Positions 24,601 to 63,902 of a stretch of 64,000 bases of DNA are shown here, piece by piece (positions within the stretch are counted from its first letter, which is position 1; every line of letters begins with the position of its first letter). Origin of the DNA: Liolophura sinensis (taxonomy: Eukaryota > Mollusca > Polyplacophora > Chitonida > Chitonidae); the NCBI RefSeq assembly GCF_032854445.1, contig NC_088302.1, positions 42,942,645 to 43,006,644 on the forward strand, given 5' to 3'. The translations under genes and the position numbers were made by a program. The notes under the pieces were generated by a model. That model saw only the letters and a program-made list of their open reading frames with translations. It was not told the DNA's origin and did no database searches.

Positions 24601-24676
24601 TGAAGAGGAATTTCCCCCAAAAAGAGGACAAATCTCATGTCTGTTATTCAGGTTTTGAAGATAAAGTCGTCTTCAG

Positions 24677-25150
24677 GGATCAGTATACACAAGTTAGAGG
24701 TCATAATTCACAGGTCAGGTATCAGTATACACAAAACAGAGGTCATAATTCACAGGTCAGGGATCAGTATACACAAAACAGAGGTCATAATTCACAGGTC
24801 AGGGATCAGTATACACAAGTTAGAGGTCACAATTCACAGGTCAGGGATCAGTATACACAAGTTAGAGGTCATAATTCACAGGTCAGGTATCAGTATACAC
24901 AAAACAGAGGTCATAATTCACAGGTCAGGGATCAGTATACACAAAACAGAGGTCATAATTCACAGGTCAGGGATCAGTATACACAAGTCAGAGGTCACAA
25001 TTCACAGGTCAGGTATCAGTATACACAGGTTAGAGGTATATGAGCTAACTGACAGGTCAGGGATCAGTATTCACAGGTTAGAGCTATATGTAATAACTGA
25101 CAAGTCAGGGATCAGTATTCACAGGTCAGAGGCCAGTTTTCACAGGACAG
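24677..25150. repeat. 42-bp minisatellite downstream of acid ceramidase (~11 copies)
   Basis: Unit GTCAGGGATCAGTATACACA, then AGTTAGAGGTCATAATTCACAG. Because 42 is a multiple of three, two plus-strand frames stay open, which explains the long repetitive open frames here. It lies in the probable 3' UTR of acid ceramidase. Confidence 0.92.
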
Positions 25151-25406
25151 GATTCACGAAGATGTCTGGTTGGAAATAACTGGCCTAACATATTTACACA
25201 GGAGTTCATCGTTCACATGTGTTAATCATTTGAAGATCACCATTCTTCACTGATCATCATCCATAAATCCCGTTCAACATTCTACAGAGGTATTCCTCCT
25301 TCATCCAGAGATTATGATCTTAGTCTCATCCTTAGCTTCAAGTCATACATGTAGGTTATCATCTACAGGTCACAGGTCACCTATGAAGGTGAGCTGGATG
25401 TCATGA

Positions 25407-25496
25407 TCACCATGGGAAGCATGGTTCCTCACAAGCCTGGATCCAAGTCTCTAAATGTCCTGAGTCCACCTGCATTAGAGCAGTGTATGTGGTCAG
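25407..25496 (-). CDS. ASAH1: Acid ceramidase exon 13 and stop
   Basis: 29 codons plus TGA, acceptor TTTATTTCAG. It encodes [20 protein letters not shown] and then ACEEPCFPW. The two cysteines and the final Trp match the family C-terminus. Confidence 0.92.
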   Translation of the reverse strand: MTTYTALMQVDSGHLETWIQACEEPCFPW

Positions 25497-28400
25497 CTGA
25501 AATAAAGAATATACCACATTTACAGAGCATACACCACATTGTAATCCCTGCATGTATCAAATGAATATAAGACTTTGGAAATACCTTTGTTTAGTACTTC
25601 CTACATAAGAAAACACGGCCTAATTATGATTACATACTCACCTTGTTTAGAACTGGTTTTGAGGACAACACATCAAATATTCCAGCCACAGAAACCTTCT
25701 ACAAAGAAACACCATTTTTCTGTGATTACAGAATGCAATAAATACACACTTTGACAGCAACATACAGTCCATCGTAGCTGTCAATCAACTTCCTCTGTAC
25801 TCAGTATTACAAAAGCATTTGACATTCATTGATTTATTTCATTGTTGCAGATTGATTTGAATGCCACACTCAAGAATTTGTCTCACATGTAATATACAAA
25901 ACTGGTCAGTTATATGGCCAGAGGAAACTGCAGTGCCTGGAGTAAACCTCTGACCTTTGGCAACACATGCCACATCGATAATGCCACATCATTATGAACC
26001 TTTGTAATACGGTCCAGCTCCATTTATTTATTTATTTGATTGGCGTTTTAAGCCGAACTCCATAATATTTCACTTATAAAACGGCAGCCAGCATTATGGT
26101 GGGAGGAAACCAGGCAGAGCCCGTGGGAAACCCACAACCATGGCATAAAACCCCAATCAATCAAATAAATAAATAAATATTTATTTATGGATCTGAAAAC
26201 TCCATATCCAAGAATTTTCCAATCATACAATGATTGTCAGTTTTATAAGTGGACGAAATCAGAGCACCCATGCCCCAGGTTTTGGCACTTCCTCATACAC
26301 ATATGCACACCACACTGATGAGAGATGAGAAGTGATCTTCAGCAAGGCTGGATTGAGTAAACGGCCATGTGAGTGCCATTGATCAGGTACATGTATTGTC
26401 TCCATGGCCCCTTGATCAGAGTCTCCCTTTATGGTATGGAGATACCACCAGTGGCCAATTCCTCAAAGCCATTTCAAAATTTAAAACCTCCTTAATACAA
26501 TGTGTAGTTTTTAGTTCTTGAAGTAGGAATGTGGACACTTTTGTCTTAAACTAATAATGATGAAGTGGACAAAATTTAAATTTGTAAAGCTGAAAAATAA
26601 GCTGGATCATATTTCAATTTTTGACTTAAGTCTGGCCAAATGGCTTTGTGAAATCAGATGTACATGTGGGGGTTTTCCATGGCACACTCCAAGCAGGATT
26701 CTAGCATTTCACTACCACTCCAAAAGCAAACTACGGGCTGATCAGTTGGTCTAATATCTGGGTTGTGTGGAGAAAAAATCTACCTTGGCATGTACTGTAT
26801 GACACATTATTATGGTTGACTGGTAGACATTTACCTTCTGAGTGAGAGTGTTCATACACTTGTGTGCTGGTGTGCGTCGGTCATCCAGGAATAGAGGCTT
26901 CTGCCAGTGATCATAGTTAGTCTCCAGAATGTACCACATAGAGCTGTTCATACACCAGACATCTACAGCAGACTCCCGGGCACGTGTTATAACACAGCCC
27001 TACAACACAAAAGTGGTCACAGTCTGAAGAATGTACCACACAGAGCTGTTCATACAGCAGACTCCCAGGCACGTGTTATAACACAGCCCTACAATACAAA
27101 ACAGTGGTCAGAGTCTGAAGAATGTACCACACAGAGCTGTTCATACAGCAGACTCCCAGGCACGTGTTATAACACAGCCCTACAATACAAAACAGTGGTC
27201 AGAGTTAGCCTTCAGAATGTACCACATAGAGCTGTTCATACACCAGACATCTACAGCAGACTCCCGGGCATGTGTTATAACACAGCCCTACAACACAAAA
27301 CAGTGGTCACAGTCTGAAGAATGTACCACACAGAGCTGTTCATACACCAGACTCCCAGGCACGTGTTATAACACAGCCCTACAATACAAAACAGTGGTCA
27401 GAGTTAGTCTCCAGAATGTACCACATAGAGCTGTTCATACACCAGACATCTACAGCAGACTCCCAGGCACGTGTTATAACACAGCCCTACAACACAAAAG
27501 TGGTCACAGTCTGAAGAATGTACCACACAGAGCTGTTCATACACCAGACTCCCAGGCACGTGTTATAACACAGCCCTACAATACAAAACAGTGGTCAGAG
27601 TTAGTCTCCAGAATGTACCACATAGAGCTGTTCATACACCAGACATCTACAGCAGACTCCCGGGCACGTGTTATAACACAGCCCTACAACACAAAACAGT
27701 GGTCACAGTCTGAAGAATGTACCACACAGAGCTGTTCATACACCAGACATCTACAGCAGACTCCCGGGCACGTGTTATAACACAGCCCTACAAACACAAA
27801 ACAGTGGTCATAGTCTGCAGAATGTACCACATAGAGCTGTTCATACACCAGACATCTACAGCAGACTCCCGGGCACGTGTTATAACACACCCCTACAACA
27901 CAAAAGTGGTCACAGTCTGAAGAATGTACCACACAGAGCTGTTCATACAGCAGACTCCCAGGCACGTGTTATAACACACCCCTACAACACAGAAGATCAC
28001 AGTTAGCCTTCAGAATGTACCACATAGAGCTGTTCATACACCAGACATCTACAGCAGACTCCCGGGCACATGTTATAACACACCCCTACAACACAAAAGT
28101 GGTCACAGTCTGAAGAATGTACCACACAGAGCTGTTCATACAGCAGACTCCCAGGCACGTGTTATAACACACCCCTACAACACAGAAGATCACAGTTAGC
28201 CTTCAGAATGTACCACATAGAGCTGTTCATACACCAGACATCTACAGCAGACTCCCGGGCATGTGTTATAACACAGCCCTACAACACAAAACAGTGGTCA
28301 CAGTTAGCCTCCAGAATGTACCACAGAGTTGTTCATACACCAGACATCTACAGCAGACTCCCGGGCACGTGTTATGACACAGCCCTACAAACACAAAACA

Positions 28401-31400
28401 GTGGTCACAGTTAGTCTCCAGAATGTACCACAGAGTTGTTCATACACCAGACATCTACAGCAGACTCCCGGGCACGTGTTATGACACAGCCCTGCAACAC
28501 AAAACAGTGGTCATAGTCTGCAGAATGTACCACATAGAGCTGTTCATACACCAGACATCTACAGCAGACTCCCAGGCACGTGTTATAACACAGCCCTACA
28601 ACACAAAACAGTGGTCACAGTTAGCCTCCAGAATGTACCACAGAGTTGTTCATACACCAGACATCTACAGCAGACTCCCGGGCACGTGTTACGACACAGC
28701 CCTACAACACAAAACAGTGGTCATAGTCTGAAGAATGTACCACATAGAGCTGTTCATACATCAGACATTTACAGCAGACTCCCGGGCATGTGTTATAACA
28801 CAGCCCTACAACACAAAACAGTGGTCACAGTTAGCCTCCAGAATGTACCACAGAGCTGTTCATACACCAGACATCTACAGCAGACTCTTGGGCATGTGTT
28901 ATGACACAGCCCTACAACACAAAACAGTGGTCACAGTCTGAAGAATGTACCACACAGAGCTGTTCATACATCAGACATTTACAGCAGACTCCCGGGCACA
29001 TGTTATGACACAGCCCTACAACACAAAACAGTGGTCACAGTCTGAAGAATGTACCACACAGAGCTGTTCATACATCAGACATTTACAGCAGACTCCCGGG
29101 CACATGTTATGACACAGCCCTACAACACAAAACAGTGGTCATAGTCTGAAGAATGTACCACATAGAGCTGTTCATACATCAGACATCTACAGCAGACTCC
29201 TGGGCATGTGTTATGACACAGCCCTACAACACAAAACAGTGGTCACAGTTAGCCTCCAGAATGTACCACATAGAGCTGTTCATACACCAGACATCTACAG
29301 CAGACTCCCGGGCACATGTTATAACACAGCCCTACAACACAAAACAGTGATCACAGTTAGCCTCCAGAATGTACCACATAGAGCTGTTCATACACCAGAC
29401 ATCTACAGCAGACTCCCGGGCACGTGTTATAACACACCCCTACAACACAAAACAGTGGTCACAGTCTGCAGAATGTACCACATAGAGCTGTTCATACACC
29501 AGACATTTACAGCAGACTCCCGGGCACATGTTATGACACAGCCCTACAACACAAAACAATGGTCACAGTCTGAAGAATGTACCACACAGAGCTGTTCATA
29601 CACCAGACATCTACAGCAGACTCCCGGGCACGTGTTATAACACAGCCCTATAACACAGCCCTACAACACAAAACAGTGGTCACAGTCTGCAGAATGTACC
29701 ACATAGAGCTGTTCATACACCAGACATCTACAGCAGACTCCCGGGCACGTGTTATAACACACCCCTACAACACAAAACAGTGATCACAGTTAGTCTCCAG
29801 AATGTACCACAGAGCTGTTCATACACCAGACATCTACAGCAGACTCTTGGGCATGTGTTATAACACAGCCCTACAACACAAAACAGTGGTCACAGTCTGA
29901 AGAATGTACCACACAGAGCTGTTCATACACCAGACATTTACAGCAGACTCCCGGGCACGTGTTATAACACAGCCCTACAACACAAAACAGTGGTCACAGT
30001 CTGAAGAATGTACCACATAGAGCTGTTCATACATCAGACATTTACAGCAGACTCCCGGGCATGTGTTATGACACAGCCCTACAATACAAAACAGTGGTCA
30101 CAGTCTGAAGAATGTACCACATAGAGCTGTTCATACATCAGACATTTACAGCAGACTCCCGGGTACATGTTATGACATAGCCCTACAACACAAAAACACA
30201 ACTAAAACACAGAGACCTATCAACAGAACTGAACCACAGGTATCTAAGCTCAGCACAACAACATAGTTGCTATGACTTTTTAACTGATTTTAAGGATATA
30301 ACCTTACAAATGAAAACACATATATTGTACAGATGTAATAAAAAAGAGTGCAATACATCTAGAATATGACCCTCAGCTCAAGCTGGCTTCCTCACCAGTC
30401 GTACATGGTGGGTCTGTCAGCAATCTGTAGATGGTCATGGGTTTACCCACTCATATGAGTGAAATATTCTTGAGTAAGGCAGTAATACACCGATCAAATA
30501 AATAAATAAATTATATAATAACGTTCAATCTCTCACCTCCCCTGGTTTAGTTCCACCTAGGATGAAATAAGCTGGAGCTAACATTTTTGTGTTGGTCAGG
30601 TTTTTCTTGGCTTCCTCAAAGCTGTGAGAATTCTCCAGGGTTTGTCTGGTCAGGAAACCCATCCACTGACCGCTGTGGTCACCCAGTATCCACTCTATGA
30701 CACCTATAGACATAGACACGAAATGAAAAAATAGATGTTTTCATGCTCATAGACGGCTACATGTACATGGCAAAACAATATCTGTGAAATTTGAGCAGAA
30801 ACAGCTAGGTGCGTTCTCAGGCATTAGAAATAATTAAAGTTGAATTAGTTGAAATTGCTAACACCGTTTTGCTTTCAATAGTCTTAACATACATGATTTT
30901 GCTTTCATTGAACTCTTACATCTTGGTTTTGCAACATCAGATGAAGGAGCTTTGTCCTTCATTTTTTTTTTTACTTCATGTGTCATATGATACCAGACAT
31001 GACACCCACTCAGTCACATTATCATAATTACACTGACACTGTGCCAACCATTCCTGTTCCCTTGCTCTAACCTCTCTAAGCCTAACTAAGCACCAAGCAA
31101 GGCAGCAATTAGTACCAATTTGGAAGTCTTTGGTATGGCCCGAATCAGGTTTTTTATTCCAGATCCCCCAACTTCAAGGTGTATGCTCTATAACCACGGG
31201 GCCACCGAAGTGGTCAATTTGCTGAATATACTCTTGAAGTCAAACATACCCATGAATCCACCATCTATGTTGAACCTTTCATTCATGGTCAGGGTGAAGA
31301 CACCCTACAATTAAATGTGTAAACACTACATGTATGTACTGTATGTGCACTAATATTTCATACAAAACATACATGCCCATCATATTAGCTAAATCAAACA

Positions 31401-34400
31401 GTTTCAAACCAAATTATTTTATTAAATAAACCTTCATTGATTTTCCAAGATTTTCTGTCTGTTACTCACTGCATATCCAGAATGGCAATCAAATAAATGA
31501 TGCCTCGTTTTTAAATGTCTTACAGTTCACTGAAGTACAATGTAGGTATAAATCCATCTGTAATATTGTGCAGAGGACAGTGTGTGAAACTTCACACACA
31601 GTGTGCAGAACACAAGAGTACGTGAAACACAATTAACACTCTTAACCATGTTAACTGAAAACCTTTTACATACTCACATTCATTACAGAACTAGAGATTA
31701 AAAGTACAGAGTGTCTTCAACCAACCTGCAACTGGCAAAAAGCTATGTGTATCCTAAACATTTGACCAACAGATACATGTATCTATGAATATTTCTTTAT
31801 GTACAGGACTCTATTAAAGAGGTGTGTTCCAAGTGAGTCTTAGGTGTGTAAGTCAGGGGTGTGTCACACAAGGTGTCGGAGATGTATCACAGGTGTGCCA
31901 AGGATGGATTAGACTTGTGTGAGAGGTGTGCTACAGGAACAGCAGCAGAGTGTGACATGTGCACTAGAGGTACAGCGGAAGTGTGTCAGAATTGCACTAG
32001 AGGTGCAGCAGAGGTGTGCTAGAGGTACAGCAGAAGTGCTTCAGGTGTATAGTAGATGTGTTTGAGGTGCACTAGATTTAGTTATCATCAGATTGGTTAT
32101 TTATGCTGTACTCAAGAATATATCACTTGCAGACCTTCTCAGATGGAACTCACAGTGACCGCATTGGGGAGAGGCTCCCGAGTCATTGCACTGTTGTCAG
32201 AGGGGCATTAGAGGTACAGCAGAAGCGTGTTTGAGAGGCACAACATGTGTCAGAGGTGCTCTAGAGGTACATGTACATGTACAGTAGAAGTTTGTCAGAG
32301 GTGTTCCAGAGGTACAACAGAAGCGCGTCAGAGGTGCACTATTGACTTACAGCAGCAAAGATACATGTGCAGTAGAAGTTTGTCACAGGTGTTCCAGAGG
32401 TACAAAAGAAGTGTGTCAGAGGTGCACTATTGACTTCCAGCAGCAAAGATACATGTACAGTAGAAGTTTGTCACAGGTGTTCCAGAGGTACAAAAGAAGT
32501 GTTAGAGGTGCACTATTGACTTACAGCAGCAAAGGTACATGTACAGTAGAAGTTTGTCACAGGTGTTCCAGAGGTACAAAAGAAGTGTGTCAGAGGTGCA
32601 CTACTGACTTACAGCAGCAATGGTACATGTACAGTAGAAGTTTGTCTGAGGTGTTCTAGAGGTACAACAGAAGTGTGTCAGAGGTTCACTATTGAATTAC
32701 AACAGCAAAGGTACATGTACAGCAGAAGTTTGTCAGAGGTGTTCCATAGTAGCGCTAGAGGTACAGCAGAGGTGTAAAGGTGCAAAAAGAGGCGTGTTTT
32801 TTCTAAATCTTTATACTGAGCCTTAAAAATTACTGGTTTCACTCCTGTCAAGACACCAAGGTAACCGGCAAAGTGCACCGACTTGAAGACGGTTTTGTTG
32901 TTACGTCTAAAGTCGATATTGACAATGGTGTGCCGAAGAGCCTCTGTGATGGTCCAGCTATCAGTTTTCACGTCCCAGCTACATGTAGAGGTAAATAAGA
33001 AGTTAAAACAACCACTGAGTGACTAAACATACGTAGGTAAAATGATGCATTTATTCAAATAATAAAAAACGACACTAGTAAAATGTACAAATATCATCTC
33101 AGGATGTTATAACACTTATTATAAAAAGCTACAGCATTTATCATTATAGAAAGCTATGTCATTTATCATTGTCAAAAGTTTATTATCGGTTTCAAATATG
33201 GAACCATACACCTGTGATGTGGCATTTGAAAACACATCTCAAAATGTTCAGCCCGTATTCATGAGACATGCTATAACTAGTCAACCCAAATTCATGAGAC
33301 ATGGTAAAACTAGTCAGCCCAAATTCACGAGTCATGGTATAGCTTGTCAATCCAAATTCATGAGACATGGTAATCCCAGTCAGCCTAAAATCATGAGACA
33401 TGGTAAAACTAGTAAGCCCAAATTCACGAGTCATGGTATAGCCTGTCTGTCCAAATTCATGAGACATGGTAATCCCAGTCAGCCTAAAATCGTGAGACAT
33501 CGTAAAACTGGTCAGCCCAATTTCATGAGACATGTACCAAGAGTCAGTCAGCCCAACTTCACAATTAAGTTGAAATGTATTATCCTATCACTCAATAAAC
33601 ATGCACATGTTCAAACATGTGTACATACAGAATATATCTAACAGCACTTTTTGGGTCCTCAGCCAAATAGCCACAAAGTGCAAAATTCTTCACGTTACCG
33701 GTAAAGTTTATAAATATTATATGCTTATATTAAATTAAAGAGAAGGATAATTTGTGCATGAATGCTGGAAATATTATACTCACCCCAAAAACAATCCAAA
33801 ATCCAAGTTCCTGGCATGAAAGAGTTTTCCTGTTTAAACAGTGTCATAACAGAACCGAATAATTTATTTATTTGTCTGGCATTTTATGCTGAGAATAGAA
33901 CAAACAAAGCAACCCACACATGTACAGCAGAATTACCTGCATTTAAGTAAAGACTGTAAAATGTCCTATATTTACATTTTACATCTACTTTACATTGGGC
34001 ATATAAAAATACAAACACATGTACAAACATAAATAAAAAAAACATAAAAAACAAACATAAAAACCTACATCTTTATGTACATCTTAATTAATACTGACTT
34101 TATATCCATATATTTTACATCTACTTTCAGGACTTTACAATAGGACATTATAAACAAATATGAACATCAACATGTGCATGTATAGATATAATATATATAA
34201 TATTTGTTTCTGTAATAAATACGTACATGTATGAAGTCACTGCTCACAGACACATTCAAATAAATGAACAGTTATTAAAAGCTGGTATGATCTCTTTTAA
34301 CTTCATCTACACTACCGTCACATTATGACTACACAATACTGCACATTTGGATTCACAACCCAGGCTAAACCTGAACCACAGTTCAGGTGCAAAAACTAGA

Positions 34401-37400
34401 CCTCTTGTAGAACATATTTTACAGCCCTCATGTCTTAAGTCACCCACCTGATGAACACGGGCCACAGTTACAGCACAGAAAGTAATGTAAATCTCCAAAC
34501 CTTTCAACTATTAAATCACCTTATTATGAAAATGATGCTAATTGATCTGTTTGTGTCACTTAAGATGCATTCTTCATAACACTGCACAAATTATTTCTCT
34601 ACACCCCATATATCTCTCAGAATGTTTCAAAATATTGGTTGCTGATTAAGGCAGTTGAAAAGGTTGAAGAATTAGGCTAAACAACTGATATATTCACATT
34701 CTGTATTAACACTTATATCCCAAGTCACCTACCTGAGGAATCCTGGGCCACAATGGAGGTGCAGAAAGTAAACAACTCATAGAAAACATTGTAGAACACA
34801 ACCTCACCTGAAAAACAAAATTACATCAAGTCAGAACACCACAATTTTAAAGGAGAGAACTGGTGACTTTTTATAGTGATAAACACACGTTCTACAAATG
34901 AATATATATATCTGCTACATATAGGTAATAAATAACATATTAGACAAGCTAGAGTATAACGTAATCTTCCCATGACTGGCTGTGGAAAGCAATAAAACTA
35001 TTGTAGTGGTTCAACTGTTGTATTTCTCTTATGTGCTTTCGTTTCTTATGATGTCTTCTCCTCAAGTATGCAGGCACCTATGAAGTGCGACACCATCCAA
35101 TCACTTTAATCCTGTTTGATATTTAACGTGCTGAGCTAAGCTTGTTAAATGAATTAACCAATCAGGATTCTTTCCCTTGAACTCAGAGATGCTGCTACTA
35201 TTTGGATCCAATTTCATAACAGTTCCAGGGCTGTTATCCAGTATGACTTGTACATGAGATTCAAGATTCTTATACGAAATTAAAGTTCTCCAAGAACAGA
35301 TTGTCAGTGAATGGGAAGATGAATATTTATTATGATGAGGGAGGAACCAGCAGTTGACACAAGTACCAAACAATTGACTGTCATATGGGACAGAGTCCCA
35401 GTTAAGTGCCATATGAGACAGAGAGTCCCAGTTGTGTGTCATATGAGACAGAGTCCCAGTTGAGTGTCATATGAGACAGAGTCCCAGTTGAGTGTCACAT
35501 GGGACAGAAAGTCTCATGAGGCTCTTGTCTCAAATTATGGTACCAAAGTTCAGTTGATATATTCTGGTATATAGTCTCAGTGGTCCACTTTTGATATCTC
35601 AGATAATTTCTACTTGCATGACACTGGAGCTGGATTCTTAGGTTTCGTGAGACTGGAGAGTCCTAGAATTTTTGGACTGGGATAAGTCTCATGAGACTCG
35701 TCTCAAGTGATAGCACCAAAGTTCAGGTCACTTATTCTGGTATTAAGTCTCACGAAAACCTGAGAATCCAGCTCCAGTGTCATGCAAGTAGAAATTATCT
35801 GAAATATCAAAAGTGGACCACAGAGACTATATACCAGAATATATCAACTGAACTTTGATACTGGCAAATATTGATTTCTTAAATTAACCATTAAGGCCTC
35901 AGATAACGATCTTATCAAATCTTTTGTGAAAATTCATAAAACATGAATATATGCAACTTCCCTACATCAAATTTATTTTTTAAATCCTGCTTTCTTAAAT
36001 TCCACTACAGTATTAAAGTCCCAAAGAATGAGAAGATTATTCCAGGAATGATTTTAATGAAGATCATTCTGTGAAATCTATATAATGACAACAAAATAAA
36101 GGTAGGTGCGATTTTAAGACGAGCTACAAGGAGAAAACTTGCCCAGTGGTAGGCCAGTGGCATTGGCTATGCCCCTCATTTCATCAGCGTATGGTAAGGT
36201 AGACACCATCTTCTCCTACAAAATGTACACAAACTTAAATACAGCGCAGGCAGAAAAGTAGATGTGCAGGTTATGTATCTATCAACAATTCATAGTGGCT
36301 GTGAAGATTACAACTTAAACAAATGAATGTCAAATCGTCAGATGTTCCTAATGTGAATTTAAGATCATGAAGTTGCAATAGACATTTTCTTACCAATGAT
36401 ATCTTCCCAACAATAAGAAATAAGAGCTTCCGACATGTAAATACAAAAGGTTACTCACACACACTCAAAAATTTTTCACCAACATACAATGGCTGTCAGT
36501 TTTACAGGTGGAGAGATGCGATGCGCCCATGGTAACCACCAACATAAATTGGCCAGGTCCTGAGACCTTTCCCACATGAGTGATGTACAGAGATATATGT
36601 ACGGCATACTAATGAAAGACAACGCTGGTATTCAACGTAAGTTTAACCGACTGTACCAATGACCATACAAGCGCCAGCGGTAGCTTACTGTCACTGTACA
36701 CAACCCGTGAACAGTAACCATGGCGTAGGTAACCACAGCCTTAGAACAATACATGTTGCAACAGCTTCACAACACCTTACCCCGTTTGTGTCTACGAACT
36801 TGATGATTTTCTCTGTGCGGTTGCCGAAGTCACGAATGAATTGCTTGAACATGGACAAGAGGTGCCGTATCTGTGACAGAAAAACACAAAACATTGGAGG
36901 ATGAAGAACACATGGATGTCAAATAAAGGACAAAATCAAGGCATCTATTTGTAAGTACATGTAAAGTATATCCTCCACTCATATTTGTTTATTTATTTAA
37001 CTAGTGTCTTATGTTGTACTCAAGAATAATTTCACAGAAAACCTATGATCATCTGCAGGATGATACCAGACTTTCCAACGTATGACCAGATAGGAAGCCA
37101 GCATGTACTGAACATACAGAGTGATGCTTTGGTGAACTTTTTAAGTCCTCCTGCTGCACTTACATCTCCATGTTAACTACCAGGCCATGTGGGCCCTCTC
37201 CACTCATGCATGTATCAGACACAAGATACCAATAGGCCATGTGGGCCCTCTCCACTCATACATGTATCAGACACAAGATACCAATAGGCCATGTGGGCCC
37301 TCTCCACTCATGCATGTATCAGACACAAGATACCAATAGGCCATGTGGACCCTCTCCACTCATACATGTATCAGACACAAGATACCAATAGGCCATGTGG

Positions 37401-39092
37401 GCCCTCTCCACTCATGCATGTATCAGACACAAGATACCAATAGGCCATGTGGGCCCCCTCCACTCATACATGTATCAGACACAAGATACCAATAGGCCAT
37501 GTGGGCCCTCTCCACTCATGCATGTATCAGACACAAGATACCAATAGGCCATGTGGACCCTCTCCACTCACACATGTATCAGACACAAGATACCAATAGG
37601 CCATGTGGGCCCTCTCCACTCATGCATATATCAGACACAAGATACCAATAGGCCATGTGGGCCCTCTCCACTCACACATGTATCAGACACAAGATACCAA
37701 TAGGCCATGTGGGCCCTCTCCACTCATGCATGTATCAGACACAAGATACCAATAGGCCATGTGGACCCTCTCCATTCGTACATGTATAAGACAAGATTTT
37801 TAAAGTGTAAATTAGCTTAATATTAAAGCGCAAGTACATCTTCCCATTTCATGAAAGCGCTTAATTCAAAAACTGTGAGAAGTTTTTCTGCAAAAATACC
37901 ATACAAAGTTTTTACAACTGTGAATCTTTTATAACCTTCATGACTTTTCATATTTTCATCAAGATGTAAGAACTGAGTTGACTTTGCATGTACATGCATG
38001 AAGAAGTTCTTTGTTTTCATTGTGTGCCTTTTCCTTGTCTTCATTATTTGGGAAAAAAGTTATTTCAAATACTCCATTACATTAACCCTTAAAAACACAT
38101 ATCAAAGACTGTTTTTCATCTCTTGCCACATATAGAACAATATCCTGTGTCATGTGAGTCATGCACTGAAGTTAATTTTATTGTGAAGAATCACAGGCCT
38201 ATGATTTAATAAAGTTTAAAACCACAGAACTCTAAACCACAAAAATGATGGAAGCTTTGGTTATGTACATGTATTTTTGCATCTTGTACATGCATGTAAC
38301 GCAGAACACCCATTATTGTGCATAATACAAGGAGTGCATAAAGGAAGTTTTGTTCACATGCTGAAAAAGTTTTAATGCACAGGTTTAAAGGAAGTAAAAA
38401 ACAAGCCTCCTTCCTGCACATGCTGAACATGATCTTTGACCACAGCTAAAAAAATCATGCAAACAACATTACAAAAATATACAAATAGAGCTCTGTGAGT
38501 CAGCATTGTCTTTCAGACCTTCAGGGTTGGTCTGCATGTGCTAACATAAAGTCAAAAGTTTATACAGAAACGTGCCATTTTAATTCACATCAGCTGAGTC
38601 GGCATCATTTACAGGCAGCGAAATTTGGTCTGCCTGCGAAACCCAGAAATCGGTTACGTCTTTTCCGCCTCGCCTAACCGATCATTCGGTTACGCCACGT
38701 ATGTTTATCAACCCGATCGGTTACGCTAATTGTTTACGTGGTTTATGTTTCAGGCATCATTCTGGATCATTAAGAAAAGTATTCAGCTCAATGTTATGTT
38801 TGTTTTTCTTTTCTATATCTAGCAGCTCATACCGTAAGGTTGGTGAACAAAAGGAAGAGAAATTTTACACTCACACGGTGTTTCAACGTTGTGTGTTGCC
38901 TGGTTGGTACTTGACTCCTGTGGCACATTTTTACGTGAAATTCCGTTATACAGGCTTATATGTTTGCAATATGCCCAGTCCAACATTAAGTACTTCCAGT
39001 AAGTGTCATTACCATATTGGGGAGCGAGTTTGGTATCCCTGATTACTGATAATTAACGCAGTTTCCAACGCACGTGTGTGAGTCTTACCACA

Positions 39093-39129
<37 letters not shown>

Positions 39130-42100
39130 TCACTACAGGGCCGGGAGAGACGTCACAGGCCTGTGCTCTAAATCAGAATGCAGCCGGTGAGGTCCCGTAA
39201 GGGTTCCATTAATCTGTACGATAAACTCTACTAATTTGGGCTCGAGTAGCAGTTAAACTACACGTACATGAAAAGGTAACCTTGTTTTATTTACTTGCGT
39301 GATCGTGAAAAGATAAGTCAAAATAAATAATTTGAGTATTATCTCAAAGCCTGTAAAGCATATATGAATGATTACATTTCCATGTGACCAGCACAGGCAG
39401 CTGGCTGTGGCTGAAATTGATGTTTCTATTTTTAGACGCGTTGCCATACTGGCCGCGTTGTGATTATGAAAGCTGTTCAGTCCAGTTTATCTGTAGTTAC
39501 CTAATGCACACTGACTCTAAGGACGTTCTCGTTGGACAGTTGGCCTAACCGATTTTCCGGTTAGCCAAATTGAACCGCACGTAACCGTTCGCGCCAAATT
39601 TCGATGCCTGCATTTAGATCATAGTAGGATAATAAGCAAGAGGCCATAAACATTCTACGTCAATCACTTTATATTTTTACATTAGAAAGTATGTACAAAA
39701 TTTCACTTTCCATAATCTGAAAATAACAAAGTGGTCTGGATATTAAGATGTAAAACTGGGTGTATCTTGAGAAATTCTAAGCTGCTTGTGGTCTAGACTG
39801 TCTGAGCCTTTTCAAACTGCACACCACCCTACAGGTGCACTATAAATACAGGTGTGACTGCACCAGTAACAATAGGGATTATTTAAACCACAACAGGTGT
39901 ATTTATATAAGACACGCACATATACATATAAATGTACATATAAGCTTATCAAGTACAATGCATCTAAACTGGGCTAGCAAGTTTCACGTGCATGTATTAA
40001 AAGATCAGGTTTATTAAAAATTAACCCATACTTGAGCTGTTTTGTTTTCAAAAAAAAAAAAAGAGGTTGAAACAGACATCCTGTTTGAAGACTGGCTGAC
40101 TCATATGGCAGTCAGTCAGTCAGTCAGTCAGTCTGACAACCATAGCAAAATCAAGTTTCTTATCCTTTTAACGCAATTCAAACAATCTGTAAATGCAACT
40201 GCTAAATATACAGGACGTGATCACGGATGAGTGAAGGAGACCTTGGATGGGTGGAAGTGATCAAGGACGGGTGGAGACTTTGGATGGGTATTGGTGATCA
40301 TGGATAGGTGAGGAGATCATGTGCAGGGGAACAGGGATGGGTCGATACCTTGGATGGGGAAGGAAACCTTGGATGGGTGTTGGTGATCATGGATAGGTGA
40401 GGAGACCACGGATGGAGGGTGCAGGGGATCAGGGATGGGTCGATACCTTGGATGGGGAAGGAAACCTTGGATGGGTGTTGGTGATCATGGATAGGTGAGG
40501 AGACCACGGATGGAGGGTGCAGGGGATCAGGGATGGGTCGATACCTTGGATGGGGAAGGAAACCTTGGATGAGTGTTGGTGATCATGGATAGGTGAGGAG
40601 ACCACGGATGGCGGGTGCAGGGGATCAGGGATGGGTTGACACCTTGGATGGGGAAGGAAACCTTGGATCGGTGGTAGTAATCATGGATAGGTGACGAGGC
40701 CATGGATGGAGGCTGGAAGGGATCAGGGATGGGTGGAGACCTTGGATAGGTGGAGGAGCCCTTGGATGGGAGGAGAGAAAATTGGATGGGTGGAGGAGGC
40801 CATGGATGGATGGGTGGGTGTAGGAGGCCATGGATGGGTGGAGGGACCTACTGCTGGATGGATAAGAAGACAATAGATAGGTGGGGGCAATCATAGATGA
40901 TGGGTAAAGGAAATCATGAATTTGTAGTTGATATATCATGGATGGGGAGTTATGCATTTCTTTGTTTGACTGGTGTTTTACGCCATCATCAATAATATTT
41001 CACTTAATATACAATGACAGCCAGCATTATGGTGGGAGGAAACCATGCAGAGCCCCAGGGAAACCCACGATCATCTGCAAGTTGCTGCCAGACCTTCCCA
41101 CGTACACCCGAAGAGGAAGCCAGCATGAGCTGGATTTGCTCACAGCGACCTCATTGGTGAGAGGCTCCTGTATCATTGCCGCGCTGGCATGGTAACCCAA
41201 TCGCCCATAGAGGACTCTGGATGGGGAGAGAGGGCACAGAAATATGATGATGAGGGGACACATTACCTGTGGTCCTCTGTCCTTCATCACTTCAGTCCAT
41301 CTCTCTTCCCCTGGCAGGTCTAGATTAACCACATAAGTGGGGATACTCCAACTGAAACATGGCAAAGTTTACCAGAACAGCATACATGTACATTCAACAA
41401 CATCTGGACTTTAAAATATACCATATGATTACTTTATGTCCTAAATCTACATTAGAGGTATTTCATGTTGTTTACGAGGAAATAACGGTATCCTACTGTC
41501 TACAATTTCCTCTACACATATAACTACTAAACCATATGAAGACATGTTAGTGAAACATTCTTCAGAAACATATTTCAATCCGAAGCAGGATTCTCAAGCT
41601 TATAAAAAGTATCATGCTTTATTATTTTTATGAGATTTCACCAAATAACACGTAGAAAAAAATGACAATACTGCACATGTGACTGGTGTGGATCGAGGCA
41701 GATATCTTGGGAATTTTATCCAATGAAGCACTTTGCTATCAGATTGTGCAGGATGAGCTGTGACGTAGCCTTTACTCATTCGTTCCATGAAGTGACATTT
41801 GATAATGCACAACTACTGTATAAGACATTATTTTGAGATTGTTTACGATTTAGTTACGTTTTGCTGAGGGGCCATTTCGCATAGTGTTGTGGGACAGGTC
41901 TTTATCATAGTAGACCGTAGGCATACTTAGACATGCTGTTCAAATTATACAGTACAAATACATTTCTTGTCGTTCATTTTACTATCTGGTCAGCTGCTTC
42001 TAAATAACAAATATCACAGTAAAAAATTTGTTAGGGATACCGAAAGTTTGATGGGAATGAGAGGACAGGATCTCAACAGACAATGCTTAAAATTAATTAA

Positions 42101-45449: not shown

Positions 45450-47730
45450 GTAAGAAACTGGGGGGAATAGATCACTGATTATCCACATATTGTAACTCGC
45501 ATCTTCTCATTTTGAAATCCAGTAAATGTTAATGCCCATTCGTGTAAAACTGGTGTTGGGAACACTCACTGACTCAGGCTGGTCAGTGAAGGCCTATAGG
45601 CCTATGCCATTATAGGATATACATGCATGTTGTATATTAATATAGAGAGAATGCCAACATATGTGTGCTGTTTTGTGCAGCTTTAACATCGTGGGAATTA
45701 TAGCTTTATGGGGATATGGTTACATCTACAGCTAGTTCAGTGAAATGAAATATTGAGGTCTGTTTTCAACAACGTCTGATATTCACTTGCCTCAACGTTT
45801 AATTTAATTGAACTAATATATACAGCATGTAGTCAAGGAAGTGGAAAGCACAATTACAAATGTTTACATGGTGAAGGGATTGGTAGTTGAAAACATGTAA
45901 CTCTGATTCAAGTGGTGCCGGCACCACAAGCATGACAAGAGTCAAGGCAAGATCAAACGGAGCTGGAGTACTGGCCAAAAGATATATTTAGCGTTTGATA
46001 TGTTCAAATAAAGAACCGCAAATTCATGTCCACAACAATCACTGGTAGTTGTGTATTGTATTTCTCTACCTGTAGGACTACTGCTAAGAAATATTGCATT
46101 GAAATGTTTGCATTTTGCCACATCTCCTGTTTTTTCTGCCAATTCAGTACTCTTTATTTATGAGTATGGTTCTACACAGATATGGCGAGATATTGTTTTG
46201 GTATTCCACCCTGCCTAATATGCAGATATGGCTGCCAAGAATAAGAACGCAATTCAGATATTGGCTATACTGAAATAAAATTCCTGTGTGTAGAGGAAAT
46301 GAAAAATGTCCTACAACAAATCTCATCAGGTCAGTTTTAATGCTTCCATGATAAATATGTAGAGGCAGTTATTGTATGATACATGTGTATGGTGTACAAA
46401 GTGAGTAGTGTGTATAATGATGTTGTTGTCGTCATCTGTCACAGACATGTTTATATTGTCGTGTGTAATAATGATGGTTATGTTATCCAACATAACTTGA
46501 TGTAGGTGTGAAAATTTGATCTGTTGACAGAAACACAAGTTCGAGATGGAGATGACCTGTGATGGCTGCTCTGGGGCTGCCAGGAGAGTCCTGTCCAAAT
46601 TAGAAGGTGATGATAATGCTTGTGCATTCAAGTTGATTTTAATATTAAACTAGAATTTGGGGCCTCTGTGGCTGAGAGTGGTAGCATGGCAGCAAGGAAC
46701 AATGACTCAGCATTCTCTCACCAATGCGGTCGCTATGAGTTCAAGTCCAGCTCTTGCTGGTTTCCTCTCTGGCCATTTGTAGGAAGCTCTTCCAGCAACC
46801 TGTTGATGGTTGTGGGTTTGCCCTGCACTCTGCCTGGTTTCCTCCCTCTGTAATATATGTTGTCATGGTAGTTACAGCCTGCTCAGTTTGTAATCGATTA
46901 ACTTTGTTGTTAAATTGATAATGCAGTTTCAAAACCAAATTCTTGTATTGTGAAAGTTAAAAATAGTCTTTCTGTGTTGTATCACCTGTGGAAAATGTTA
47001 GGCAATGTTAGTAAACATTAATTTATCTATCACTTGTCTGTGTTCCAGATGCACAAATGACACCTCTTTCCTATAGAAACTTCTCAGGTTGAAAACATGT
47101 TCAGCTCCTCAATTTTCCCCATTGTTTATCTACTCTAAATAACATTTTTGTGAAACTGTTTTCATACAGACACCCATGTTATAGTAAATGTGAGCATGCA
47201 ATTATTGACTGGTCACATTAAGCAGTTGGACTTTTTTTTTTTTTTGCTTTTTTTTGGGTGATAAAAGAATTCAGAAATAAAACATACATTTTTCTTCAAG
47301 TATTTAAATTTCTAACACATGCTCACAAAACAGGTAGATGTAATAATATAGTCTAGAATAATTGGAATATGGATTAATCGTTTGTTTCTTGAAGAAAAAC
47401 AAACAGTTAAACCATGCTCCAACTACATGTGCATGTAAACCTGCTGCATATCTCATACCATGTGCAGTGAACATGTATTAGAAATTCAAATACATGTATC
47501 ATTTTTATAACTTGATTATTCCATGTTTAAAGTCTTGTTTAAGTCTATTAAATGAATATCAGTGCTCAATAAATGTTTTTGGTGTGCATTTTGTCTGTGC
47601 AGGTGTTACAAATATTGAGATAGACATGGAGAAGCAGAGAGTGTACGTTACTTCAGACTTAACATCTGAACAACTCCTGGAGACGCTGAAGAAAACTGGC
47701 AAAACCGTGTCTTATGTGGGAAAAGCGTGA
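45438..47730 (+). CDS. ATOX1: Copper chaperone ATOX1-like, complete, three exons
   Basis: Exons 45438-45449, 46531-46606 and 47603-47730 give 71 aa (the human protein is 68, from memory). ATOX1 is a cytosolic carrier that hands Cu(I) to the copper ATPases of the secretory pathway. The heavy-metal-associated fold shows the copper site MTCDGC (Met12, Cys14, Cys17) and the C-terminal LKKTGKTVSYVGKA, including the loop lysine typical of ATOX1. Introns are in phase 0 and phase 1 with standard GT-AG ends. The gene lies head to head with acid ceramidase. A minisatellite begins at the stop codon, so the 3' UTR is probably repetitive. Confidence in the family is very high; single-domain length excludes the ATPases themselves. 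Confidence 0.96.
46531..46606 (+). CDS. ATOX1: ATOX1 exon 2, copper-binding motif
   Basis: 76 bp, phases 0 to 1, acceptor GTTGACAG, donor G|GTGATG. It encodes KHKFEMEMTCDGCSGAARRV and then LSKLE. The MxCxxC motif is at positions 12-17. Confidence 0.95.
46655..46855 (+). mobile_element. SINE, family A, sense orientation, ATOX1 intron 2
   Basis: Head GGGGCCTCTGTGGCTGAGAG, B-box-like GAGTTCAAGTCCAG, then TGGTTTCCTCTCTGGCC. The 3' end is truncated after TGGTTTCCTCCCTCTG. Confidence 0.8.
47603..47730 (+). CDS. ATOX1: ATOX1 exon 3 and stop
   Basis: 128 bp, acceptor TCTGTGCAG. It encodes VTNIEIDMEKQRVYVTSDLT and then SEQLLETLKKTGKTVSYVGK A, ending in TGA at 47728-47730. Confidence 0.96.
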
Positions 47731-49840
47731 ACTCAGGTACAGGTGTCTGAATTGGGCACTGGTGTGATGGTGTGTGTGTGTGTGAACTCAGGTACAGGCG
47801 AGTTAGCCTTTGTGTGAACTCAGGTACAGGTGTGATGGCCTGTGTGAACTCAGGTACAGGTGCCTGTGAATTGGGCACTTGTGTGATGGTGTGTGTGTGT
47901 GAACTCAGGTATAGGTGAGTTAGCCTGTGTGTGAACTCAGGTACAGGTGTGATGGCCTGTGTGAACTCAGGTACAGGTGCCTGTGAATTGGGCACTTGTG
48001 TGATGGTGTGTGTGTGTGAACTCAGGTATAGGTGAGTTAGCCTGTGTGTGAACTCAGGTACAGGTGTGATGGCCTGTGTGAACTCAGGTACAGGTACCTG
48101 TGCCTGTGAATTGGGCACTGGTGTGATAGTGTGCGTGTGAACTCAGGTACAGGTGTGATGGGCTGTGCGTGAACTCAGTTACATGTGTGATGGCCTGTGT
48201 TTGAACTCAGGTACAGGTGTGATGGCCTATGTGTGATGGCCTGTGTGCAATCTCAGGTACAGGTGTGATGACCTGTGTGTGAACTCAGGTACAGGTGTGA
48301 TGGCCTGCGTGTGAACTCAGGTACATATGTGATGGCCTGTGTGCGATCTCAGGTACAGGTGTGATGACCTGTGTGAGAGCTCAGGTACATATGTGATTGC
48401 CTGTGTGTGAACTCAGGTACATGTGTGATGGCCTGTGTGTGAACTCAGGTTCAGGTGTGATCGCGTGTGTGTGAACTCAGGTACATATGTGATGCCTTTT
48501 GTGTGATCTCGGGTACAGGTGTGGTGATGGTCTGTGTGTGAAATCAGGTACATGTGTGTTGGCCTGTTTGTAAACTCAGGTACAGGTGTGATGGCCTATG
48601 TGTGACCTCAGGCACAGGTGTGATCGCGTGTGCAAGCTTGGGTACAGGTGGGATGGTCTAGCTGTGTGTGAACTCGGGTACAGATGTGATTGTCTGTGTT
48701 TGAACTCAGGTATAGGTGTGATGGTCTGTGTGTGAACTCAGGTACAGATGTGATAGCCTGTGTGTGAATTCAGGTAGAGGTGTGTGAATTCAGGTACAGG
48801 TGTGATGACCTGTGTGTAAACTCAGGTACAGGTCTGATGGCCTGTGTGTGAACTCAGGCACAGTTGTGGTGGCCTGTGTGTGACCTCAGGCACAAATGTG
48901 ATTACCTGTGTGGGAACTCAGGTACATGTGTGATGGCCTGTTTGCAAACTCAGGTACAGGTGTGATTCTCTGTGTGTGAACACACATACAGATGTGATAG
49001 CCCCTGTGTGAACTCAGGTACAGGTCTGATGGCCTGTGTGTGAACTCAGGTACAGGTGTAATGGCCTGTGTGTGACGTCAGGTACAGGTCTGATGGCCTG
49101 TGTGTGACCTCAGGCACAGATGTGATTACCTGTGTGGGAACTCAGGCACAGTTGTCATGGCCTGTGTGTGAACTACGGTAATGGTGTTATGGTTTATGTG
49201 TGAGCTCATGTACAGGTGTGATGGTCTGTGTGTAAATTCAGGTACAGGTGTGATGGTCTGTTTGAGCTCAGGTGCATGTGTAATGGCCTGTGTGTGATCT
49301 CAGGTACAGGTGTAATGGCCTGTGTGTGACCTCAGGTACAGGGGTGATGGCCTGTGTGTGACCTCAGGCACAGGTGTGATGGCCTGTGTGTGACCTCAGG
49401 TGCATGTGTAATGGCCTGTGTGTGATCTCAGGTACTGGTGTGATGGCTTGTGTGTGATCTCAGGTACAGGTGTGATGGCCTGTGTGTAAACTCAGGTACA
49501 GGCGTGATGGCTTGTGTGTGATCTCAGGTACAGGTGTGATGGCCTGTGTGTAAACCCTGGTACAGGTGTGATGGCTTGTGTGTGATCTCAGGTACAGGTG
49601 TGATGGCCTGTATGTGAACTCAGGTAGTGGTATTATGGTTTGTGTGTGAGCTCATGAAACAGGTTTGATGGTCTGTTTGTGAACTCGGGTAAGGTGTGAT
49701 GGTCTGTGTGTGATCTCAGGTACAGGTGTGATGGTCTGTGTGTGAACACACACACAGTTACAGGTGTGATGGCCTGTGTGTGAACTCAGGCACAGGTGTG
49801 ATGGTCTGTGTGTGAACCATGGTACTGGTATGATGACATA
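47727..49840 (+). repeat. Minisatellite starting at the ATOX1 stop codon (~32-bp unit, ~60 degenerate copies)
   Basis: The unit is about GTGTGTGAACTCAGGTACAG followed by GTGTGATGGCCT. The first copy begins inside the last codons (AAAGCGTGAACTCAGGTACA), so the stop TGA is the TGA of the repeat. At 47,740-48,120 there is also a higher-order period of about 120 bp, marked by GTGAATTGGGCACTT. Every unit holds CTCAG|GTACAG, a donor-like site. Confidence 0.92.
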
Positions 49841-55447: not shown

Positions 55448-56386
55448 GTATGTTTTCATTTGTATTAATCTTCAGAGGTTTATATTCAGGTAAAACTTCA
55501 TAAACCCAGCGTGTTCAGTAACAATCCAAACCTGAAATTATAGGTTTCTAGCAGGCCGGGAACAACTCCGGTCCAACAGATTTAATTATTTTTCTGATCA
55601 AACGACTGGAGCGTGACCATTGGGAACACGTCTGCCCATTCCTGGTGGGCGTCATGTGTGTTGCAAATCGAGATACCGTGCTTTCTGTGTTCGAATTTCT
55701 CCTACCTCCTCCTGTATGCCTGAGCACCACCTGAATCCCTACGAACCATTTTAAAAACGAAATGCACACCGCCTAAATCCCCATTTTTTGTGGACAATTC
55801 AACAAAACACGGACTAAGGCATAAAAGAGGCCCATTTTTGTTTTTTGTTCATTGGTTGTTTGTCCTTTTAATCTAAAATATGAAGAAAGCTGCAAGCTGA
55901 TAACATATTACTGCTTTGCTATTGTGTTTAGATAAGATTCTGCTTGATTTCTATTGAAATCACGAATTGTTTTGTTTGCATGGATGCATGTTTAGTACAC
56001 CACATGCATGTGGGGAAGTTTGTCAGTTATTTGCCAGAGGCCGGTTGTTCAGTCTCACCTTTTGCTATTTGTCCACCTACAACACTGACTGTTAAGATAA
56101 ATTAAGAAAGAAACAAATGAATAGACAAACAAATCAGAATATTTAACTAAAATCTATAATAGGAGGGCATTAACTTAGATTTCATTTATGAAATTATAGT
56201 AAAATCGTTTCCTAAATGTTTATACAACGTCGTTTCGGCATGCTGTTTGATTTTTCTGACATAGATGGGCAGAGAAAGAGACCCCGAGATATACTGTAGG
56301 TTTTGCTGTTAAAAAAAGTTTGTCGACGAGCACCACGAAGAACACTTTACTGTCGATACATGAACAGCTTTTTGTTTCTGTTACAG

Positions 56387-56557
56387 ATGAAGACTAGGGC
56401 CCTTCTCCTGATTCTCTTAATTACTTTTTTTGTCATCCAAAGTGGTGAAGCGGCGAGTCGTCTGTGTAGACCATGTATCCGACGATGTCTGCGGAAAAGA
56501 CCCATCCGTGTCTGCAGAAAAGTTTGCTTTCGCTTCTGCCGACGTACTGGTAGAGAG
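56387..56557 (+). CDS. Six-cysteine peptide, signal and mature-peptide exon
   Basis: 57 codons, phase 0, donor GAG|GTAACT. All six cysteines are in this exon, so one exon holds the whole predicted active peptide. Confidence 0.7.
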
Positions 56558-56882
56558 GTAACTTATGAAGCTCACAGTTACAATGGCTGTGGGGTTTTCT
56601 TGGTTTTCTTTTTTGTTTGTTTGTGTGTTTGATTTTGTTGGTTTTTTTGTGGTGTTTTGCAAAAAGATTTCGGATTAAATATTTTAAATATTTAAAAATA
56701 TACGACATGCCATGTGATAGTTAGGAATACAAAAGGTAAGATCTTACTGCTCTTTTTATTCCCTTCCATTTTGGCAAACCCTACTTTCCTCTAATATCAC
56801 CTATGTACATTTTCAGGCTGTCGCTGAAGATCAGGCGCTTGACGAAGATCATCTCGACACCACCAGCTTTCTGGAGGAGTAG
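56387..56882 (+). CDS. Secreted cationic six-cysteine peptide precursor (putative antimicrobial peptide)
   Basis: Exons 56387-56557 and 56817-56882 encode 78 aa, with ATG directly after the acceptor GTTACAG. Residues 1-23 are a clear signal peptide (RALLLILLITFFVIQSGEA). The next ~34 residues are very basic with six cysteines spaced C-x2-C-x3-C-x8-C-x3-C-x3-C (CRPC, CIRRC, CRKVC, CFRFC). They end in RRTGRE, after which exon 3 adds an acidic tail (AVAEDQALDEDHLDTT and SFLEE). Signal, cationic Cys-rich core and acidic C-terminal extension is the layout of mollusc antimicrobial peptide precursors such as mytilins. The spacing, however, is not one I recognise; paired CxxxC motifs suggest a helical hairpin. 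The function is inferred. A secreted peptide of another kind is possible. Confidence 0.7.
56817..56882 (+). CDS. Six-cysteine peptide, acidic C-terminal exon
   Basis: Acceptor CATTTTCAG, then 21 codons (AVAEDQALDEDHLDTTSFLE and E) and TAG. Eight of 21 residues are Asp or Glu and none is Lys or Arg. The exon continues as 3' UTR to 56900, where a donor GTAAGT follows. Confidence 0.65.
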   Translation, partial: AVAEDQALDEDHLDTTSFLEE

Positions 56883-63000: not shown

Positions 63001-63254
63001 GCGCCTGAATCGATTAACATCGGCACGTTAATGTTCGCGATATTCACCTTGATCTGTCCATTTGAATTGTTGCTGTGAAGAATGAACACATATTCATCGT
63101 CTGACCAGAAACTTGCATTAACTTGTGACTGAACGAAATTCGCGTGTCCAGCGGCCCCTCCTTTATTTGGGGGAGGCAGAAAATTCTGCATTTTGAGTCC
63201 GTTTTCGTTTTTTGTGTGACTTTGGGTTTTCATTTTGCCGTGCTCGGTTGCCAT
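60079..63254 (-). pseudogene. pol: Ty3/gypsy pol: protease, reverse transcriptase, RNase H, integrase (broken)
   Basis: In order along the minus strand: aspartic protease with LIDSGAS near 62,985-63,030; reverse transcriptase with the catalytic LYDDIIV near 62,240; RNase H with VDASPDGYGA and SQTEKEALAV at 61,631-61,879; and integrase at 60,079-61,644. The integrase has the zinc-binding HEGH...CHAC pair, core residues in LDILGPF, VDNRPQF and ANGEIK, and a C-terminal GPY/F-type region. The protease-RNase H-integrase order is that of Ty3/gypsy. The frame is broken after the RT active site (about 62,160-62,200), again around 61,880-62,130, and between RNase H and the integrase (about 61,640). 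It cannot make a complete Pol. Confidence 0.92.
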
Positions 63255-63902
63255 GGTTACGCTGGGACGGCTGTTTGGCTCTACCAGTGCTTTCTGTGTT
63301 TTCCGATCTAGCAGTTCGATTGATATGAAATGAATTAACGTCTGTTGTCAGTTTATTCACACTCACAGCACCCTCAATTTTGTTGACTTGTTCAGATGCT
63401 TCTACAGTGCGTGCAATGGATAATAGTTTGTCCAAAGTTAATTCAGGTTCACGCAGAAAACGTCTCCGTAACCGATTAGAGCAACATGTTTCAATTACTT
63501 GAACTCTGATCATCCCCTTAGATCACCAAATTCACAGTTCTGAGCTAAGGATCTTAATCTTGTTACATAGAGGTCGGTAGTCTCACCTTCAGTTCGTACT
63601 GCATTACGGAACATGTGACGCTCGTAGGGAATGTTTTTCTTCGGCTCGAAATACTCAGACAGTTTGGCAAAAACTGTGTCATAATCATTGCCAGTGTCAT
63701 TGAAAGTATCAAATATATCCTGGACGTCGGCTCCAACCAAATGGAGAAGAACGGCACGTTTCTTTTTAGCATCGGTGGTGCCGGTAGCTACGGTGTAGTA
63801 CTCGAAACGCTTAACCCACGTCTCTCATCGCTGTGCGAGGCTCGTCGGATCACCGTAGACGTCAAATGGAGGTACGGCACGCAGGTCAAATGGTCTGGCC
63901 AT
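63163..63902 (-). pseudogene. gag: Ty3/gypsy gag (broken)
   Basis: The ATG at 63902 follows the primer-binding site by a few bases. Codon 26 is TGA (63825-63827) and a frameshift lies near 63,512. Between them are typical gag segments (FAKLSEYFEP, RTEGETTDLYVTRLRSLAQN), then LREPELTLDKLLSIARTVEA in the next frame. I see no zinc-knuckle cysteines in the basic C-terminal part. The gene is inactive. Confidence 0.85.

Follow-up and report, generated by a model that had tools for sequence, protein, structure and literature searches.

In the chiton Liolophura sinensis, the intron that precedes one exon of the acid ceramidase gene is filled by 31 tandem, partial copies of that exon, each of which carries a 3' splice signal of its own. 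The gene lies on the minus strand of the stretch analysed here (64,000 nt; contig NC_088302.1, positions 42,942,645 to 43,006,644, assembly GCF_032854445.1), hereafter the window, to which all coordinates refer unless a contig is named. The structure is real and striking, and most likely represents a tolerated minisatellite, an extreme new member of the intron-exon boundary repeats known as mirages in amphioxus; a regulatory role is possible, though unsupported. An initial annotation, made from the letters alone, had proposed about 31 tandem copies of an acceptor plus the 5' part of an acid ceramidase exon. We recovered 31 partial units followed by the complete exon, and the anatomy agrees with the tandem duplication, within its own intron, of the exon's 5' part together with its acceptor.

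Anatomy of the acceptor array

The array and its immediate surroundings comprise the following features (a slash marks the splice point here and below):

30537-30703, minus strand: acid ceramidase exon preceding the array-hosting intron
30183-30230, minus strand: non-repeated upstream edge, which provides the acceptor context of unit 1 and has, at -38, a TTGAT resembling a branch point
27000-30195, minus strand: array of 31 partial copies; every unit combines a 3' splice signal, in most cases TTTTGTGTTGTAG, with some 75-100 bp from the 5' part of the exon
26835-26999, minus strand: complete exon, 165 bp, phase 0, its 5' part being the 32nd copy; donor AAG/GTAAAT

On the minus strand, 32 acceptor-plus-exon copies follow one another from position 30195 to 26900, 31 of them partial and the last one the complete exon; the first exon bases of the 32 acceptors run from 30182 down to 26999. 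The 31 spacings between them (89-117 bp) fall into three classes, 104-108 bp (24 cases), 89-91 bp (six) and 117 bp (one), and in the unit alignment the six short units have a 13-bp internal deletion and the 117-bp unit a 13-bp internal duplication. The main block of the array received a Tandem Repeats Finder score of 3789. The signal TTTTGTGTTGTAG is present verbatim at 22 of the 32 acceptors, and 31 of the 32 end in TAG, the other in CAG. The pattern used to list acceptors demands an AG, so that an AG at every acceptor is given by construction; the unbroken unit spacing indicates, however, that no unit was missed by it.

The claim of more than 30 near-identical acceptors in a row is borne out. 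Pairwise identity between units averages 0.929 with gaps ignored (range 0.853-1.0). For the exon copy, identity to the other units ranges from 0.89 to 0.98. Units free of frameshifts encode GCVITxAxESA, in frame with the real exon. Identity to the exon copy is 89% for unit 1, 98% for unit 27 and 91% for the adjacent unit 31. By lag, units two apart (0.944) are slightly more alike than neighbours (0.933), and long and short units alternate near the exon-proximal end. At the copy junction, exon sequence ending in CACTG runs onto intron sequence beginning with TTTTGTG, and the original flanks have, judged by eye, about 2 bp (TG) in common. An origin through microhomology, as first suggested, thus finds little to build on, the resemblance between TGACCACTG and TGATCACTG being ordinary exon homology.

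The intron that hosts the array (30536-27000) measures 3537 bp, of which the array takes up 3183 bp (90%) and unique sequence about 354 bp; without the array it would therefore be about 354 bp long. When the genome was searched with the 5' part of the exon, in a DNA search that skips very common words and leaves out some stretches, all 32 listed matches fell inside the array on contig C8, and a dispersed repeat was rejected on this basis. Plus-strand open frames also run through the array, the longest of 232 aa.

Tandem arrays are prone to mis-assembly, and one contig of the same assembly, with seven copies of COX1, looks like a mitochondrial concatemer. The units of the acid ceramidase array nevertheless differ from one another (85-100% identity) and hold ordered sub-patterns, and the HiFi reads behind the assembly (mean 8,347 bp, 14x; PMC11068029) are longer than the 3.2-kb array. 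We consider an assembly artefact highly improbable; the exact copy number may still be off. The assembly was first published under the name Liolophura japonica and later corrected to L. sinensis (PMC11068029). Its mitochondrial gene order, taken from open frames under genetic code 5, fits a mollusc and made amphioxus doubtful as the host; ARAGORN with the bacterial code listed no tRNA.

The host gene

25405-36870, minus strand: ten acid ceramidase exons with a 320-aa open frame through to the stop
41030-41368, minus strand: open frame within which an acid ceramidase exon from farther upstream in the gene lies (PF15508, NAAA-beta, E = 2.9e-10)

The ten-exon assembly starts downstream of the gene's first exons. 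Once joined, these exons keep an intact reading frame of 320 aa that terminates at a stop, and the closest solved relatives of the product are acid ceramidases (PDB 5u84, E = 9.8e-121). The 165-bp exon, flanked by introns of 3.5 and 1.1 kb, encodes the segment GCVITR...TNYD...DDRRTPA (PDB 6mhm, E = 1.3e-16). Strong protein matches to the gene are all on contig C8, and one copy of the locus was found in the assembly; the genome protein search returned no close paralogue, only weaker acid-amidase-like matches on C1 (57.76 Mb) and C3 (0.49 Mb). One C1 match spans the position of the array-hosting intron (query 179-238), so that the C1 gene, as judged from this alignment, seems to be without it. 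Elsewhere in the acid ceramidase gene, one intron begins with a GC donor (TGG/GCAAGT, 36142-36137, minus strand, behind an exon ending at 36143), and an inverted repeat (35540-35645 and 35756-35861), with arms of 106 nt that are 96% complementary and 110 nt apart, lies inside an intron of the gene.

Reading frames and splice signals of the 32 acceptors

The upstream exons were joined to each acceptor in turn and read on to the real donor. The full frame resulted from the 32nd acceptor only. From each of the 31 upstream acceptors, a premature stop was met between nt 36 and nt 114 of the exon, never closer than 218 nt to the exon's end; it is located at nt 36 (six acceptors), 42 (six), 78 (five), 102 (one), 105 (five) or 114 (eight). 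That only the acceptor beside the complete exon yields the enzyme had been anticipated in the initial annotation, as had the early stops, which were placed at the TAG of the next unit; this location, corresponding to nt 105, applies to 5 of the 31 upstream acceptors, and the other 26 terminate elsewhere. Exons reaching to the real donor would measure 165 nt from the last acceptor and 254-3348 nt from the upstream ones.

A branch-point-like CTAAC is located at -22 to -27 of 12 acceptors, three of which have CTGAC as well; one further acceptor has CTGAC alone, and unit 1 has TTGAT. The strict pattern yUnAy found no match at 18 of the 32 acceptors, including the productive one, which has TGTGAC only. 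The source of CTAAC is ACT-AAC, the Thr-Asn codons of the exon's conserved TNYD motif, in the preceding unit; we take this Asn to be an active-site residue of acid ceramidase. Because the branch-point-like motif is supplied by exon sequence of the preceding unit, some 13 nt of intron would have sufficed to copy a possibly complete acceptor. The pyrimidine count of the productive acceptor, 11 of 16, is the same as in 30 of the 32 acceptors.

Potential donors within the units are poorer. Scoring covered the eight real GT donors of the gene, with its GC donor left aside; GTs in the units have at most 6 of 9 consensus matches, while the 165-bp exon's own donor has 8. This speaks, weakly, against tandem, mutually exclusive duplicated exons, three real donors also scoring 6. 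Recursive splice sites were rejected, all 32 acceptors reading AG/GG and never AG/GT. In seven units (1, 2, 3, 7, 11, 12 and 14) a GCT/GTAAAT occurs, stop-free, exactly 33 nt into the exon part, and with GTAAAT as donor such units could act as in-frame cassettes that add 11 residues (GCVITxxRESA). This donor, however, lacks the exonic AAG of the real AAG/GTAAAT and has fewer than 6 of 9 consensus matches, and the four acid ceramidase alignments examined (three plus one) contain no such insert; the chance that the units serve as cassettes seems to us very slight.

Boundary arrays elsewhere in the genome

Minisatellites are common in this genome. Fourteen 10-kb pieces, taken from eight contigs, contained 28 arrays that made up 9.4% of the sequence, and 16 arrays lie within the window. 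Minisatellite stretches inside introns of the acid ceramidase gene, or past its stop codon, are the following:

24673-25151, 31917-32026, 32273-32746 and 33118-33178: further minisatellites
33248-33534, 35374-35508, 37182-37793 and 40321-40842: further minisatellites

None of these stretches overlaps any of the ten acid ceramidase exons read. Additional mirages were sought by eye among 808 listed matches from genome searches with seven protein families (138, 107, 99, 83, 111, 150 and 120 matches, with 131 of 842, 103 of 105, 92 of 386, 88 of 95, 82 of 487, 149 of 168 and 99 of 99 candidates scored, respectively). The procedure is insensitive, candidates being scored in part and short exon pieces falling below the threshold. 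A single tandem cluster, of six matches, was found among the 808 (C5:3399596-3400243), and this and the window together gave the following arrays:

C5:3397500-3402500, local positions about 2695-1874, minus strand: ABCB1-like donor array with eight identical CTCCAG/GTAAGG
C5:3397084-3398251, minus strand: array with a 36-bp unit and another 27 GGTGAGT sites, within the intron that follows a later exon of the same ABCB1-like gene
47728-49835, plus strand: 32/64-bp array whose start coincides with the stop codon of an ATOX1-like copper chaperone gene, with donor-like CAGGTACAG 29 times
About 46530-46610 (borders by eye) and 47603-47730, plus strand: ATOX1-like exons (PDB ATOX1, E = 3.8e-6)

In the first array, the unit combines the 3' portion of an exon with the donor that follows it, and there are eight units at exactly 86 bp with two decayed copies behind them; the exon and its neighbours belong to an ABCB1-like transporter (E = 2.8e-66). 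Its first donor is productive, and seven of the seven others lead to a stop. This array is a clear 5' splice-site mirage, the mirror image of the acid ceramidase array. The 36-bp array is probably a third case: its first GGTGAGT lies 98 bp after the donor of the later ABCB1-like exon, and the context of that donor matches the array consensus at 23 of 36 positions, whereas nine GGTGAGT sites in the window reach 13-18 and eight real donors 8-18. The ATOX1-like array, possibly a 5' splice-site mirage and possibly a 3' untranslated region array, is a candidate only. Further boundary arrays are expected in the chiton genome, at a rate too uncertain for firm extrapolation.

Conservation of the units and a possible effect on enzyme output

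The 12 acceptor columns of the unit alignment are not more conserved than the 85 exon columns (mean entropy 0.123 versus 0.152, permutation 0.41, in a test that is rough in that the units are related by copying). Invariant columns number 8 of 12 in the acceptor and 66 of 85 in the exon part, and of 86 contiguous windows, 45 equal the acceptor columns in conservation. Variable exon columns are distributed 9/5/5 over codon positions 1, 2 and 3, and this pattern, together with the in-frame stop after all 31 upstream acceptors, led us to reject coding selection on the units, which are not maintained as coding sequence. The upstream acceptors show no sign of being kept, purged or coding.

These observations bear on the earlier suggestion that the array tunes acid ceramidase output. 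Decoy acceptors would recruit U2AF/U2, mis-spliced or intron-retaining transcripts would be destroyed, and copy number would set the amount of enzyme. The premature stops of all 31 upstream acceptors, with 218 nt or more of exon left behind each, fit such a scheme, as does the CTAAC motif, which 12 upstream acceptors have and the productive one lacks; apparent precedents for intronic repeats bearing on splicing come from the variable number tandem repeat alleles of TERT intron 6 (PMC11830802) and from minisatellites of C. elegans (PMC4039745). The acceptor columns, however, carry no extra conservation, so that the suggestion lacks positive support from this side; a similar array is located in an unrelated gene of the same genome; and the amphioxus analogues appear to be normally spliced by reverse transcription PCR (RT-PCR; PMC3087553). 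We regard this role as improbable.

A probable tolerated minisatellite with a captured splice site

Very probably, the array is a mirage, that is, a minisatellite that has captured a splice site and is tolerated since exon definition favours the acceptor nearest the donor. The sequence shows a tandem duplication that linked mid-exon sequence (...TATGATCACTG) to a point some 13 nt ahead of the exon's acceptor, and unequal exchange would then have expanded this duplication to 31 extra copies. The units would represent potential 3' splice sites, with a strong ACTAAC branch-point motif for 12 of them and a weaker one (e.g. TGTGAC) for 18. Because no unit donor scores as high as the real one, exon definition would pair the real donor with the closest acceptor, the last copy, and so produce the 165-nt exon. 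Leakage to upstream acceptors would give early-stop mRNA, probably cleared by nonsense-mediated decay, and the array, presumably without a dedicated function, would be tolerated.

Splice sites closest across the exon are reported to be paired by exon definition when the flanking introns are long (PMC9225289). Given the flanking introns of 3.5 and 1.1 kb, the last acceptor would accordingly be expected to win, at a distance of 165 nt to the donor, over the next one, at 254 nt. The array anatomy, the intact ten-exon frame, the 31 of 31 non-productive acceptors and their unremarkable conservation all support the tolerated minisatellite, as do the abundance of minisatellites in the genome, the ABCB1-like mirror case and the amphioxus analogue BflGb6.

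Several points weigh against this interpretation. The same study describes an overall preference for the upstream 3' splice site, which is only 'significantly reduced' in the long-intron class (PMC9225289), so that some leakage to upstream acceptors would be unsurprising. The productive acceptor is not the best one locally, lacking the CTAAC or CTGAC carried by 13 others. Three of the eight scored real donors reach only 6 of 9, equal to some GTs of the units, and the score alone therefore leaves room for a unit-internal donor. The use of the last acceptor is here a prediction from sequence.

Other features of the window and assembly

Open frames of a retroelement, presumably Ty3/gypsy-like, occupy positions 60079-63824 on the minus strand, with RVT_1 and Integrase_H2C2 above the cut-off and an integrase core and aspartyl protease below it. 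An open frame at 56300-56632 on the plus strand has a signal-peptide-like start, a small Arg/Cys-rich part and no Pfam match at E 0.01; its product could be a secreted cationic peptide. Outside the window, contig C99 carries seven COX1 matches about 15.5 kb apart and looks like a head-to-tail mitochondrial concatemer, an assembly artefact.

Significance

Choice among equal splice sites is usually studied with short engineered duplications. The chiton provides a natural set, with 32 near-equal acceptors for one donor in the acid ceramidase gene and eight identical donors for one acceptor in the ABCB1-like gene, and we see the main value of the array in this natural test of splice-site choice. 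In both arrays the sole productive site is the one nearest across the exon, so that chiton RNA-seq can gauge the fidelity of proximity against distance; RNA-seq data from five tissues of the species have been published (PMC11068029). The array also carries mirages to another phylum, which suggests a wider animal phenomenon, and it is relevant to the idea, put forward in the literature, of mirages as seeds of new introns (PMC3087553).

A broader conjecture, which we put forward as rather unlikely, is that boundary minisatellites are a class of mutation that recurs across animals, that perhaps hundreds of genes in chiton genomes carry multiple acceptors or donors of identical sequence, and that allele length at these sites shifts the share of productive splicing. 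If true, such arrays would amount to dose-response experiments made by nature on how splice sites are chosen, and at certain loci, acid ceramidase for one, their length would regulate output.

Comparison with known systems

NAGNAG and other close tandem acceptors compete for one exon. The chiton acceptors differ from these in lying 89-117 nt rather than a few nt apart, each with its own pyrimidine stretch, and a NAGNAG-type arrangement was rejected on the grounds of this spacing. Intron gain through AGGT proto-splice sites resembles the chiton case in involving an intragenic tandem duplication with splice signals (PMC3087553, PMC4974935); in the chiton, however, the acceptors are followed by GG and not by GT, and no new intron is evident.

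The closest relatives are the mirages. Three of the six features listed for them were found here: head-to-tail repeat units that span an intron-exon boundary of the host (31 units), a splice signal (AG/GT) carried by the units (TAG in 31 and CAG in one, with unbroken unit spacing) and an intact authentic exon in a coding-competent gene (320-aa frame, PDB E = 9.8e-121). The other three are regular splicing, length that varies among haplotypes or cells, and concerted evolution within the array alongside divergent units at its edges. An exon fragment amplified with its own acceptor had been thought to be undescribed as a class, a view that gives way before the mirages of amphioxus globin, Adh3 and TnC and similar structures in PGBD5 (PMC3087553, PMC3902484). 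In amphioxus BflGb6, a minisatellite-like duplication comprises the 3' end of an intron and the 5' part of an exon, and RT-PCR suggests that splicing is undisturbed (PMC3087553). BflGb6 shares with the chiton array many units with a splice signal and similar unit identities, 81-100% as against 85-100%; it differs in that its two haplotypes have 6 and 3 units, each of 150-160 bp (PMC3087553), whereas the mollusc has 31 units of about 104 bp, roughly a five-fold copy number. Adh3 and TnC likewise have tandem repeats over intron-exon boundaries that are reportedly harmless to splicing (PMC3087553, PMC3902484), those of Adh3 having units of 10-72 bp with reported somatic length instability (PMC3087553). 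Lancelet PGBD5 has 60- and 108-bp repeats over 5' and 3' splice sites, similar to the chiton array in unit length but few in number (3 x 108 bp) and imperfect according to the authors (PMC3902484). Among the publications listed in our literature searches, the named cases are all from amphioxus, and we noticed no mirages outside this group there. What is new relative to the known mirages is the mollusc host, the copy number and the presence, in a single mollusc, of both kinds of array, acceptor and donor, in genes unrelated to each other.

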